Shown: positions 420 through 58,827 of the stretch, piece after piece
How positions within the stretch are numbered: the first letter of the stretch is position 1
Layout of the letters: every line of letters begins with the position of its first letter
DNA from: Azotobacter beijerinckii
GTDB taxonomy: Bacteria > Pseudomonadota > Gammaproteobacteria > Pseudomonadales > Pseudomonadaceae
DNA: 64,000 nt
Assembly: GCF_900110885.1 (NCBI RefSeq)
Contig: NZ_FOFJ01000018.1
Location: 1-64,000, forward strand
Reading direction: 5' to 3'
The notes under the pieces: generated by a model
Databases searched by the model: none
What the model saw: the letters and a program-made list of their open reading frames with translations, nothing else
What the model was told of the DNA's origin: nothing
Translations under genes and position numbers: made by a program

Positions 420-1361
420 ATGGCAATCCTGGTAATAGCCGAACACGACAACGCGGTCCTGGCGGCCGCGACCCTGAACACCGTCGCCGCGGCCCGGGCC
501 ATCGGCGGGGAGATCCATGTGCTGGTGGCCGGCAGCGGCTGCAGTGCCGTCGCCGAGAGCGCCGCGAAGATCGCCGGGGTGGCCAAGGTGCTGGTCGCCG
601 ACGACGCGGCCTATGCCCATCGGCTGGCCGAGAACGTCGCGCCGCTGATCGCCAACCTGGCCAAGGGCTACGGCCACGTACTGGCGCCGGCCTCGACCAA
701 CGGCAAGAACTACCTGCCGCGGGTCGCCGCGCTGCTCGATGTCGACCAGCTCTCCGAGATCGTCGCGGTGGAAAGCGCCGACACCTTCAAGCGGCCGATC
801 TACGCCGGCAACGCCATCGCCACCGTGCAGTCCACCGCGCCGATCAAGGTGATCAGCGTGCGCACCACCGCCTTCGACGCGGCGGCGGGCGAGGGCGGCA
901 GCGCGTCCATCGAGGCGGTGGCCGGCGCGGGCGAGGCGGGCACCTCGCGCTTCGTCGGCGAGGAGCTGGCCAAGTCCGACCGTCCGGAGCTGACCTCGGC
1001 GAAGGTGGTGATCTCCGGCGGGCGCGGCCTGCAGAGCGGGGAGAACTTCCAGCTGCTGTATGCCCTGGCGGACAAGCTGGGGGCGGCGGTGGGTGCCTCG
1101 CGCGCCGCGGTGGATGCGGGTTTTGCGCCCAACGACATGCAGGTCGGACAGACCGGCAAGATCGTCGCGCCGGACCTGTACATCGCGGTGGGGATTTCCG
1201 GGGCGATCCAGCACCTGGCGGGGATGAAGGACTCGAAGGTGATCGTGGCGATCAACAAGGACGCCGAGGCGCCGATCTTCCAGGTGGCCGACTACGGGCT
1301 GGTGGCGGATCTGCTGGAAGCGCTGCCCGAATTGGAGCGGGGGGTAGCTGTGGTTTCGTAG
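420..1361 (+). CDS. etfA: Electron transfer flavoprotein alpha subunit
   Basis: EtfA (313 aa, the usual length) is the FAD-carrying subunit of the housekeeping electron transfer flavoprotein that links beta-oxidation and amino-acid dehydrogenases to the quinone pool. The C-terminal FAD domain shows SGGRG (199-203), QVGQTGK (241-247), [10 protein letters not shown] (256-265), INKD (278-281) and ADYGLV (290-295), all typical FAD contacts. The ATG lies one base after the etfB stop. There is no extra ferredoxin-like N-terminus, so this reads as a canonical ETF rather than the nitrogen-fixation FixB form; that last distinction is inference. Downstream is a non-coding inverted-repeat element rather than another etf-related gene. 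Confidence 0.97.
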
Positions 1362-1394
1362 CGGGTGGCATGGCTGGTTATCGAGGGTTTCGAT

Positions 1395-1769
1395 ACTCCC
1401 TGTTTCGGCCCCCCGGCCGAGTCACTTTTTCTTGCGTGGCCAAGAAAAAAGTAACCAAAAAGAAGGCCACCCCCATCGTCAGGCCCTGCGCTTCGCTCCG
1501 GGTTCCCTCACTCCATCGCCGCTCCAGGGGCCCGGCCCGAAGGGCCATCCATGGCCTACGGGCCTTTCGCCGCATCCCTGCGGCTCAACCCCTTGCGCGG
1601 CGATTCCGTTCGGCCTGACGAAGGGGGAGTGGGTGCAGTCCTTACCTCCGTGAAAAGCAAAGCGAAGAGCGAGGGAGCCCCGGCACAGCCGGGGCCGGAT
1701 GAGCGGGCGCGCTTTCTCTTTGCGCGGGCAAAGAGAAAGTGACTCGGCCGGGGGGCCGAAACAGGGAGT
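1395..1769. repeat. Non-coding element bounded by 31-bp perfect inverted repeats
   Basis: Bases 1395-1425 are the exact reverse complement of 1739-1769 (31/31). Inside each arm lies a second, smaller imperfect palindrome: a T-rich block, GCG core and A-rich block at about 1426-1450, and the CTTTCTCTTTGCGCGGGCAAAGAG stretch at about 1712-1735. The interior of about 310 bp has no credible gene; the overlapping short frames are arginine/proline-rich and lack family features. The element fills most of the 1362-1838 gap between etfA and the converging baeR. It looks like a miniature inverted-repeat element or a large terminator-like intergenic repeat. I see no clear target-site duplication, though the flanks are loosely complementary (GGTTTCGAT left, CCCGAACC right). 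Confidence 0.75.
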
Positions 1770-1838
1770 CCCGAACCACTCGGCAAACAGCTCGGGCACG
1801 GAAACCGAAGACAACGCCGGCTCCATCGGCATCCTGCC

Positions 1839-2555
1839 CTATTCGCCATCCCCCGGATCGGCAGTCGGCGCCTTCCCGCGAGCTGTCGCCCGGCACTCCA
1901 GGCAATAGCCGACGCCATAGATGGAGCGGATCGGGTCGTGTCCGGGCACGGCCTGTTCCAGCTTGCGGCGCAGGTTCTTGACGTGGCTGTCGACGGTGCG
2001 GTCGGTCACGATGCGGTGATCCTCGTACAGGTGGTTCATCAGTTGCTCCCGGGTCAGCGCCCGTCCCGGCCGGGCCACCAGAGCGTCGAGCAGGCGGAAT
2101 TCCACCGGGGTCAGGTCCAGCGGAATGCCGTTGTAGTGCGCCTGGTACGTGGCCGGATCGGTGACCAGCCCCGGCAGCGGCGGCGGTTCGCCGACGCGCC
2201 GCAGCACGGCCTTGACCCGCGCCACCAGTTCGCGCGGGCTGAAGGGTTTGCAGAGATAGTCATCGGCGCCCGCTTCCAGGCCGAGCAACCGGTCGATCTC
2301 CTCGACCCGCGCGGTGACCATGATCACCGGCACCCGGCTGAAGCCGCGCAGTTCGCGGCAGATGTCCAGGCCGTCGCGGCCGGGTAGCATCAGGTCGAGG
2401 ATCAGCAGATCGTGGGGCTGGCGGCGCAGCAGCGGGATGACGCGCGATCCGTCGGCGAGCGTTTCGGCCTGGTAGCCGGCGGCGCGCAGGTAGTCGCCGA
2501 TCAGTGCTGCCAGCTTGGGTTCGTCCTCCACCACCAGGATGCGCCCCTGGCTCAT
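1839..2555 (-). CDS. baeR: OmpR-family response regulator (BaeR-like)
   Basis: This 238-aa response regulator has an N-terminal receiver domain with acidic pair E10/D11, phosphoacceptor D54 (LILDLMLPG), T81 and K103 (CKPF). An OmpR/PhoB winged helix follows ([12 protein letters not shown], then [14 protein letters not shown]). The start at 2555 ([12 protein letters not shown]) is chosen because its ATG overlaps the baeS stop as ATGA and the receiver begins at once; an upstream in-frame start would add 13 unlikely residues. In enterobacteria BaeSR activates mdtABC under envelope stress. Here the divergent mdtABC-type operon makes the same target likely, which is inference. The regulator reads intact although its partner kinase is broken. 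Confidence 0.9.
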
Positions 2556-3924
2556 GGCCGCGCCTCCCGTGCCGGCAGGCGGACGGTCAGCCACAGGCCG
2601 CCCAGCGTCGAGGCTTGGGCCGACAGGCTGCCGCCATGGGCTTCGGCGATGCCGCGGCAGATCGCCAGTCCCAGGCCGGCGCCGCCGCTGCTGCGACTGC
2701 GCGACCCCTCGACCCGGTAGAAGCGCTCGAACAGCCGGGCCCGGAGTCCTCGCAGTGGACCAGGATCGCCTCGCCGCCCTGGCGCTGTCCGCCCAGCCTG
2801 ACCCGGCCGCCGGGCTCGGTGTAGCGCAGGCTGTTTTCCAGGAGGTTGTGAAAAAGCTGGTTCAGGCGCATCTCGTCCCCCTCCACGGACAACGGGCCGT
2901 CCGGCAGTTGCAGTTCCAGGGCGAGCCCCCGTTCGGCGAAGCGGCTCCGGTAGCTGTCGGCCAGGCTTTCCAGCAGCAGGCGCAGGTCCAGCGGCTCGTG
3001 GCGATAGGTGGGGCCGCCGACATCGGCCAGGGACAGTTCGAACAGGTCGTCCACCAGCTTGCTCAGCGCGGCGACCTCGGCCTGCAGCGAGCGCAGCGCC
3101 GCCGGGTCGGTCGGGCGGATGCCGTCCTCCATGGCCTCCAGCTCGCCGCGCATCACCGCCAGCGGGGTGCGCAGCTCGTGGGAAATGTCGGTCATGAACT
3201 CGCGGCGCATGCGTTCGTTGGCGGCCAGCGTCCGGGCCATGCGGTTGAAGGCGCCGGCGAGCTGGCCGGCCTCGTCGTTGGAGCTCACCGGCACCTCGAT
3301 CGAGTAGTCGCCGGCGGCCAGTTGCCGGGTCGCGCGGGCCACCCGGCGGATTGGGCGCAGCAGCGAGCGGGCGATCCACCAGCCGATCACCGCCGATAGC
3401 AGCAGGCAGATGAGCGCGATCGCGATGCTCGACCGTATCTGCCCGGCCTGGAAGCGCTGGTCGCCGGCCGCGCTGACCGTCTCGAAGGGGGTCATGGCCA
3501 GCCAGCCGACCGTCTCGCCGTCCACCCGGACGGCGCGCAGCACCGGCTGGCTGGCGTACTGGCTGTAGCCGGCCACGTAGTCTTGCCCGGCATCGAGCAG
3601 GGTCAGGCGCAGGAAGGCGCCGGTCAGGTCGGAGATCGGCGGGGGCGGCAGTCCGCTGCTGGCGCCCTTGGGGCGGTCGTCCGGGCGGGTCAGGAAAAAC
3701 CATTCGTCCGGGTTGCCGTCGAGGAAACGCCAGTCGCCGTGCTCGGCATAGGCACGCTGGAAATTCGGCAGGATGCGTTCCAGGCGCTCGATGGCCTGCT
3801 CGTTGAGATAGCCGAGAAAGCCGTGGGCGAAACTCAGGTAGGCGGCCAGCGCCATGCCCAGCACGGCGAACGAACAGAGTGCCTGGACGGTGAGGAACAC
3901 TTTGGTGGAGAGGCTGATTTTCAT
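2552..3924 (-). pseudogene. baeS: Sensor histidine kinase BaeS, frameshifted in the ATPase domain
   Basis: The start at 3924 (MKISLSTKVF) leads into TM1 (residues ~10-30), a periplasmic sensor domain, TM2 (~166-187), HAMP, and the H-box DISHELRTP with H249. The N-box ([11 protein letters not shown]) and EDSGPG are present in this frame. The frame then breaks at about 2735-2745 and would read non-family sequence to 2587. The other frame immediately supplies [35 protein letters not shown] and a normal end at 2552, overlapping the baeR start as ATGA. The usual ~7 residues between GPG and the F box are missing as well. The lesion therefore resembles a ~25-bp deletion at a CCCGG microhomology, not a one-base error. 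Without it the gene would encode a ~465-aa kinase. Confidence 0.85.
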
Positions 3925-58321: not shown

Positions 58322-58827
58322 GTAGTACCGTTTGGTTTCCGGGCTGCCGGAAACGGCGTTCGGCACACACGACTCTCGCGGTCGGTGACAGGGGCGTTTC
58401 AGGAAAGGTTGTCGTCCGTTCCCGTGTCGAGCAACGTTTGGCTGGTGGCCGGAGTTGCGACTACGTCTCCTGCTTACTGTTGTGGCAGAAAGCAATCAAT
58501 CAGGAGGAGGAATCAAGCATCGGCAGCGGACGTCATGCGCGTCTGTGATAAAAGCTTGCAGCTACGCAATCCGATGGTTGTGCATCTCCACCCTGCACGT
58601 GTCCTTTGAAAATCGGGTGCCGTTCGCAGAATCTGCAGCGAGTTGGCAATTATCGCGACCTCCCTTGGATGGAGGCACGCCATATAGCTAAGGCATTTGT
58701 TTCCGAGGCTTCGCGGTATTTGGGTGAAGTCCCGTCGGACGGCCTTACGTCCTGGATCGGGTAGCGTGCGGTTGGGATGACTGTTCGATTTTGCGCCCGT
58801 CCGCTGGCCTGGCCGTAAATGGCGGCA
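58322..58827 (-). promoter_or_regulatory. Long 5' leader of rne
   Basis: Between the predicted transcription start (~58827) and the rne ATG there are ~500 nt without a gene. In enterobacteria a ~360-nt rne leader mediates feedback control by RNase E; a similar role here is inference. I could not identify a homologous stem-loop by eye, and no good ribosome site is visible before the ATG. Confidence 0.5.

Follow-up and report, generated by a model that had tools for sequence, protein, structure and literature searches.

What is the large inverted repeat that lies between an etfA-type gene and a response-regulator gene in Azotobacter beijerinckii: a structure that serves its neighbors, or the remains of something that moved there? 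In the window (the whole 64,000-nucleotide stretch analyzed, positions 1 to 64,000 of contig NZ_FOFJ01000018.1), the original prediction described a 375-bp element at 1395–1769 with ends that are exact reverse complements over 31 bp. Positions 1395–1425 and 1739–1769 do match exactly, and the perfect repeat continues 3 bp further inward to give 34 bp (1395–1428/1736–1769); ungapped extension yields arms of 61 nt at 87% identity (1373–1433/1731–1791). Both small inner palindromes that had been described are present, at 1421–1455 and 1712–1739, the latter with a 12-bp perfect stem (1712–1723/1728–1739). No gene was seen in the interior, as had been stated; the open-reading-frame list shows only mechanical open reading frames of 63–120 aa overlapping it. 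Its placement where the accessory region meets the etf operon was also borne out: it follows the etfA stop codon (1359–1361) and precedes a convergent response-regulator ORF (stop at 1839). The predicted folds of both strands are much more stable than those of dinucleotide shuffles (z −13.4 and −11.2), and none of 100 shuffled sequences did as well.

The recognizable element is wider than 1395–1769, extending over about 1362–1820, and the features placed in and beside it are as follows.

1362–1820, no strand assigned: whole recognizable remnant, both outer termini missing (by-eye comparison with the fuller copy L058; same left junction in the Azotobacter genome G003)
1395–1428, plus strand: left perfect inverted repeat, 34 bp (sequence match)
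1736–1769, minus strand: right perfect inverted repeat, 34 bp (sequence match)
1393–1638, minus strand: left arm, a near-complete structured unit (64 of 67 consensus pairs possible; minus strand favored as the single strand)
1528–1591, minus strand: TwoAYGGAY-like core (36.2 bits, gathering score 43, E 4.7e-4)
1547–1552, minus strand: AUGGAU terminal loop, which fits AYGGAY
1421–1455, no strand assigned: left inner palindrome, the conserved outer hairpin of the left arm (GTCACTTTTTCTTG...CAAGAAAAAAGTAAC)
1667–1785, plus strand: right-arm remnant, the 3' part of a second inverted unit (query 288–406 aligns at 80% to C98:20628-20759)
1712–1739, no strand assigned: inner palindrome of the right arm (12-bp perfect stem)
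420–1361, plus strand: putative etfA-type gene, convergent left neighbor (ORF list)
1839–2594, minus strand: putative response-regulator ORF (by inspection), convergent right neighbor (ORF list)

Computational searches placed this sequence in a dispersed family. The 182 contigs of its own genome (G000) contain five other clear matches (on C98, C108, C118 and C82, and a partial one at C112), giving six clear loci with the window copy, plus a weak 28-bp match at C76. Related DNA was found in all four Azotobacter genomes searched, and the family was detected at E ≤ 1e-10 in at least 161 of 298 sampled Pseudomonadaceae genomes and 13 of 19 genera, a lower bound because two candidates were scored per genome. 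An exact 28-base core pattern occurs in 46 stretches of GTDB genomes, mostly of Stutzerimonas and Pseudomonas; five are from Azotobacter vinelandii CA and one is on a contig titled Betaproteobacteria bacterium. Phage records gave no match to the element, and plasmid records gave one, in a 4.9-Mb Aeromonas caviae record. Several copies with conserved ends, which the original prediction had named as a mark of mobility, are thus dispersed through the genome of origin and its relatives, and the sequence is not unique. Nor does it lie in a transcript conserved among all relatives, as it is present at 2 of 30 etfA loci examined (the window and one G003 locus).

Fuller relatives define the anatomy from which the window copy has decayed. 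Most of the copies examined are inverted dimers of a unit of ~230–250 nt, with a single unit at some loci; the fuller ones measure about 620–960 bp overall and carry two divergent ~245-nt units between their ends. The six paired G003 copies without an inserted insertion sequence (IS) span 617–734 bp end to end. In G053, from another Pseudomonadaceae genus, fuller copies have 771–884 bp between inner repeats and roughly 850–960 bp to the outer ends, while deleted variants retain 233–626 bp between inner repeats. The outer ends read CAGGGCAATCGCATGAA in G003 and GGTTCWTCGC in the better-preserved G053 copies. About 33–39 bp inside them lies a related inner repeat, GGACTGG(C/A)AAG(T/A)TTGTGT, whose G053 form has 63 + 68 matches in that genome at two or fewer mismatches (reversed control, 0). 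The element has no transposase gene of its own; the gene-bearing copies examined contain an inserted IS481 or IS110, and additional DNA is present in L055 and L178. Set against these copies, the repeat at the ends of the 375-bp interval is real, but it is the inner arm repeat and not a transposition terminus, the true terminus having been lost here. The window copy has neither an outer terminus nor a target duplication, and the rest of its right arm is missing beyond about 1667–1785.

The family is itself a target of other elements. Seven G003 copies (L049, L050, L051, L052, L053, L054 and L055) carry an IS481-type element, profiled in L052 only, at an identical hairpin-loop point, in both orientations (4 and 3) and with the 6-bp loop TCTGGC repeated on either side; this is repeated, site-specific targeting of the repeat by an IS. 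IS110-family transposases lie inside copies L168 (G003) and L172 (G053), and one G053 copy (L178) has 2158 bp between its inner repeats.

Sequences flanking the outer ends carry the signature of transposition. Of 19 G003 loci examined, 12 had two usable ends and the 7 without two clean ends were left out; the 10-bp flanks of these 12 end pairs agree at 0.858, compared with 0.351 in shuffled pairings, and 0 of 2000 shuffles were as good. Six pairs are perfect and four more agree at 9 of 10 positions; L060 agrees at 6 of 10 and L050 at 1 of 10, the latter reaching 9 of 11 when the length is set to 11. Among 40 G053 loci, 35 had both inner repeats (the other 5 were left out), and 13 of the 35 had good termini, 22 end pairs with a poor terminus being left out. 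The 8-bp flanks of these 13 agree at 0.712 against 0.371 when shuffled (0 of 2000 as good), and 3 of 13 are perfect at the flush position. By eye, L152 and L154 show perfect duplications once their termini are moved by 2 bases and 1 base, respectively, and L191, which the terminus filter had removed, shows one at its other anchor.

Empty sites, which the original prediction had also proposed to seek, were found in a computational search. The flanks of 8 of the 12 paired G003 sites (the 6 perfect duplications and 2 at 9 of 10) were joined and sought in the other three Azotobacter genomes (G000, G001 and G002). Homologous empty sites were recovered for L051, L059 and L062, and for L055 as multi-copy sequence. 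The L059 junction is spanned in all three genomes, with gaps of 5 to 7 columns in G002 and G001 and 21 in G000; that of L051 is also spanned in all three, at full length in G002 and for 55 bp past the junction in G000 and G001. L062 has a short spanning match in G002 with 9 gap columns, and L055 lies in multi-copy, IS-like sequence whose homologues are uninterrupted in G001 and G002. The remaining 4 of the 8 joined sites gave no spanning match in these three genomes. Transposition of the relatives is therefore well supported. At the etf loci of G001 and G002, homology to the window runs only through etfA, with no response-regulator neighbor in the stretch compared, so that they offer no clean empty site for the window copy. 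Since this copy has no outer terminus or target duplication, its own transposition is deduced from that of its relatives. The mobility originally proposed thus holds for the family, while the window copy itself, its outer termini lost, looks fixed and immobile.

The outer ends point to the enzymes that may have moved these elements. The Azotobacter element end agrees at 20 of 20 positions with an end (L206) near a G000 contig edge (0 of 20,000 shuffles as good), where an N-terminal match to the ISAs1 profile starts 179 bp further in, at 49.7 bits, below the cut-off of 70 and at the contig edge. It agrees at 18 of 20 positions with the end beside the ISAs1 transposase at L208 (NF033564, 232 bits; 0 of 20,000 shuffles). 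ISAs1 elements make target duplications of 8–10 bp. The flank CGGCTCAGGC is shared by the end at L206 and an ISAs1 end of contig C37, a single pair that fits a 10-bp duplication; because the tenth base on C37 is part of a second ISAs1 end lying 9 bp away, a duplication of 9 bp is equally possible.

A different end system was found in G053. Its A-end agrees at 21 of 25 positions with the left end of an intact ISL3 element in G172 (NF033550, 329 bits vs 180), and its B-end agrees with the ISL3 right end at 21 of 27 positions in G172 and at 24 of 27 in an Azotobacter ISL3 copy (0 of 20,000 shuffles for each comparison). These G053 consensuses were built from the 28 of 75 ends, and only those, that fell in two ISL3-like classes at tolerances and anchors chosen in the analysis. 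The flanks of the G172 ISL3 copy agree by eye at 6 of 8 bases, and the ISL3 element ISPpu12a is given with 8-bp repeats in the account of it in PMC4133298. Crossed comparisons of the ISAs1-like and ISL3-like end systems reach only 3 of 20 and 5 of 20. From the association of ISAs1-like ends with 10-bp duplications in one case and ISL3-like ends with 8-bp duplications in the other, a single core seems to make use of two transposase systems that are not related to each other.

Matching transposases are scarce where the elements abound. G003, which is rich in elements, gave no ISAs1 match at E ≤ 1e-10 in the profile search, and G053 gave no matching ISL3 transposase, its single ISL3-profile match looking like a desaturase; the matching partners in these element-rich genomes may have been lost since. 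Inspection by eye of nine further stretches around end-like patterns in G003 and G000 revealed no intact autonomous element with these ends, and only L208 has a clear transposase, an ISAs1 fragment. Of the four Azotobacter genomes, ISAs1 is present at E ≤ 1e-10 in G000 alone. Many of its 31 ISAs1 transposase matches lie at contig edges, and the three relatives have none at that threshold; this abundance is probably a lineage-specific expansion that fragmented the assembly. Weak ISL3-profile matches in G053, G301, G297 and G002, and one each in G172 and G003, resemble on inspection fatty-acid desaturases rather than transposases. Desaturase-like proteins at L195–L198, L200 and L201 ring the ISL3 Pfam model, and NCBIfam has a tail domain common to DesA and ISL3, a source of false ISL3 calls.

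The ends and duplications also bear on whether the element is a REPIN-like repeat, that is, paired inverted palindromes moved by a RAYT-type tyrosine transposase. The two resemble each other in having an inverted pair of hairpin-bearing units, dispersed and often between convergent genes, and in the pages on REPINs of Bertels and Rainey (2011, PMC3116915) the replicating unit is likewise an inverted pair of hairpin sequences. REPINs are linked there to RAYTs, however, whereas the relatives described here have DDE-type IS ends and 8- or 10-bp target duplications, from which we infer a different mechanism; moreover, the units are ~245 nt long and not short REPs. We consider a REPIN-like origin highly improbable. 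The dispersed copies, the two classes of terminal repeats, the 10- and 8-bp duplications and the empty sites instead bear out the original proposal of a non-autonomous mobile or intergenic repeat. The element at 1362–1820 is thus very probably what remains of a non-autonomous transposable element with twin structured units, presumably moved in trans; this copy is truncated and probably no longer mobile.

The structure of these units was examined in an alignment of 53, obtained from 107 matches of at least 180 nt (103 distinct) by dropping by hand 9 that were IS-interrupted or deleted and thinning the rest to no more than 90% identity. On the strand opposite the window plus strand, RNAalifold predicts 67 pairs, 45 of which have one or more double-sided standard changes; paired cells amount to 92.3%, compared with 80.8% (maximum 81.5%) in 200 column shuffles. 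These figures are not independent tests because the units share common descent and the alignment scored is also the one that yielded the structure. The left arm of the window copy retains 64 of the 67 pairs. On the plus strand the alignment folds into 38 pairs, 23 with double-sided changes, and structures predicted on either strand have 64 pairs in common.

Compensatory changes of this kind could also arise without any RNA function, as DNA-level correction of imperfect palindromes by template switching is known in general. This alternative, which bears on the RNA part only and is compatible with a mobile element, gains from the richness of the element DNA in palindromes. Such correction should be strand-neutral, however, and after removal of two fixed-wobble pairs one strand shows 140 G-U cells against 38 A-C cells; G-U outnumbers A-C in 39 sequences, is outnumbered in 8 and ties in 6; the two arm types agree (100:23 and 40:15). 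The lean is weaker by pair, 28 pairs having more G-U than A-C and 16 fewer, yet the structure optimized for the other strand leans the same way, with 61 G-U against 122 A-C cells when read there. Hairpin correction as the whole explanation of the changes is therefore rather unlikely, and the G-U lean speaks for RNA, or for a specific one of the two DNA strands in single-stranded form, rather than for a DNA cruciform.

Each arm appears to contain a motif already known from Rfam. At the gathering threshold, Rfam gave nothing at the element in a search of the window; in a relaxed search the window core matched TwoAYGGAY (RF01731) at 36.2 bits, below the gathering score of 43. A HOTTIP_3 match in the relaxed search was treated as chance. 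By eye, one of the window loops is AUGGAU and the second AGGGAU, and the right arm at L136 has both AYGGAY loops; L136 scores 45.6 and relatives up to 48.3. No TwoAYGGAY match in G000 passes the cut-off (best, 39.7 bits). Matches above it occur in 7 of 12 chosen genomes and in 0 of 14 control genomes. G053 has at least 107 matches at E ≤ 0.01, and several of those listed are arranged divergently in pairs, some 365 bp from each other. Under stricter filtering, a match at E ≤ 1e-4 is present in 15 of 274 genomes of a class-wide sample, many of them with multiple copies, G000 not being among them; some inspected examples from other families show, by eye, similarly arranged hairpins beside the TwoAYGGAY core. 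Elsewhere in the window, an rne-II RNA lies at 58332–58602 on the minus strand (Rfam, 237 bits).

The table row for TwoAYGGAY in Weinberg et al. (2010, PMC2864571) lists it as a probable RNA, probably not cis-regulatory and not a riboswitch. In agreement with this motif, each element arm holds the two-hairpin core on the expected strand, and relatives exceed the gathering score. Unlike TwoAYGGAY alone, the core is here one domain of a larger unit that often occurs twice per element, and the TwoAYGGAY passage of that paper makes no mention of a mobile element. In a partial literature search that covered no supplements, we found no recognized link of TwoAYGGAY to mobile repeats and no name for the family.

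We can now return to the etfA locus. The one G003 etfA copy with the element has the same left junction and outer hairpin, followed by an IS110-type insertion (NF033542), a ~60-bp remnant and the same following genes at 92%. The common junction and neighbors suggest an insertion older than the separation of the two species. The G003 arm beside etfA (L168) is of the other type, with 85% identity to the right arm of L058 and 76% to the left, and the G003 remnant matches window positions 1667–1720 in reverse (L168:1040-1190 and 2690-2760 compared with window 1362–1820). The presence of the opposite arm type beside etfA in G003 makes it seem that the interior was inverted in one of the lineages, an outcome expected of recombination between the arm repeats. 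Several etfA-like copies occur per Azotobacter genome (L112, L113, L114 and others). On contig C87 a close etfA copy occupies position 1000, the same place as in the contig of the window, and both contigs look as if they start within the same repeated etf DNA.

Could the structure nevertheless be kept for the genes beside it, as a long bidirectional terminator or an mRNA-stabilizing hairpin for etfA and the response-regulator gene? The two genes are convergent, the left arm can still form 64 of 67 pairs, a terminator-like hairpin starts 43 bp after the etfA stop, and 1300–1900 contains three terminator-like sites (a G+C-rich hairpin followed by a T run) compared with a mean of 0.9 in shuffles. 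Relatives also favor such positions: in 35 resolved contexts, 17 are tail-tail, 15 tandem and 3 head-head (rough ORF caller; 16 further contexts unresolved). A tail-tail bias is, however, also expected from selection against harmful insertions; the element is absent from the stretch compared at five other Azotobacter etfA loci; the G003 copy at the same junction is split by IS110; and a local role leaves the dispersed copies unexplained. We therefore hold dedicated local regulation to be improbable. Because the window copy has lost its two outer termini and most of its right arm, lies between convergent genes and has a G003 counterpart broken by IS110, it is most likely an immobile relic, perhaps a hairpin or terminator.

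These data have led us to propose a model for the family whereby ends like the inverted repeats of insertion sequences, of ISAs1 type in Azotobacter and ISL3 type in the other genus, would be recognized by such transposases in trans, with a 10- or 8-bp target duplication at each insertion. Each of the two divergent ~245-nt units inside has a predicted conserved multi-helix fold and a TwoAYGGAY-type core and would most likely act as RNA, read outward from the middle. The copies, ends, target duplications, empty sites, covariation and strand preference are computational results; mobilization in trans and transcription of the units are what we infer. At the etfA locus, decay would have left a stable hairpin between convergent genes, which might incidentally serve as a terminator or mRNA 3' end. 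A bolder version, to which we lend only modest credence, is that the paired divergent TwoAYGGAY-type RNA is the true replicating core of a gamma-proteobacterial mobile family, kept from genus to genus as its ends are exchanged between the unrelated ISAs1 and ISL3 families, with the RNA aiding its own spread or upkeep, for example via a transposase or host RNA processing.

Among the closest described systems are MITEs and other IS-derived non-autonomous elements, such as the TIMEs of Pseudomonas, as presented in the relevant part of PMC4133298: like them, the relatives have IS-matching terminal repeats, target duplications and no transposase. The relatives are also dispersed and have empty sites in related genomes. 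At roughly 620–960 bp, however, they fall outside the 30–300 bp given there for MITEs, and they differ from both MITEs and TIMEs as described in that part in having a conserved core of twin structured units and the same core with two IS end types. The R0, R2, R26 and R200 repeats of P. fluorescens, in the section on repeats of Silby et al. (2009, PMC2718517), are likewise intergenic, many of them hairpin-forming and with a tail-tail bias, and R0 and R2 were proposed there as MITEs of IS elements. Those repeats are listed at 50–352 bp; the comparison is by description, so that identity with R26 or R200 is possible.

Interest lies in the family rather than in the window copy. An orphan Rfam motif, TwoAYGGAY, is here connected to a concrete, countable mobile element, and the findings caution against treating the etfA-junction locus as a structure dedicated to etf regulation and against reliance on small ORFs inside such repeats. 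The family is a non-autonomous transposable element whose twin RNA-like core is unusual and whose IS ends seem exchangeable; if it is true that one core swaps its IS ends between genera, this would be an uncommon route by which such an element survives beyond its transposase.
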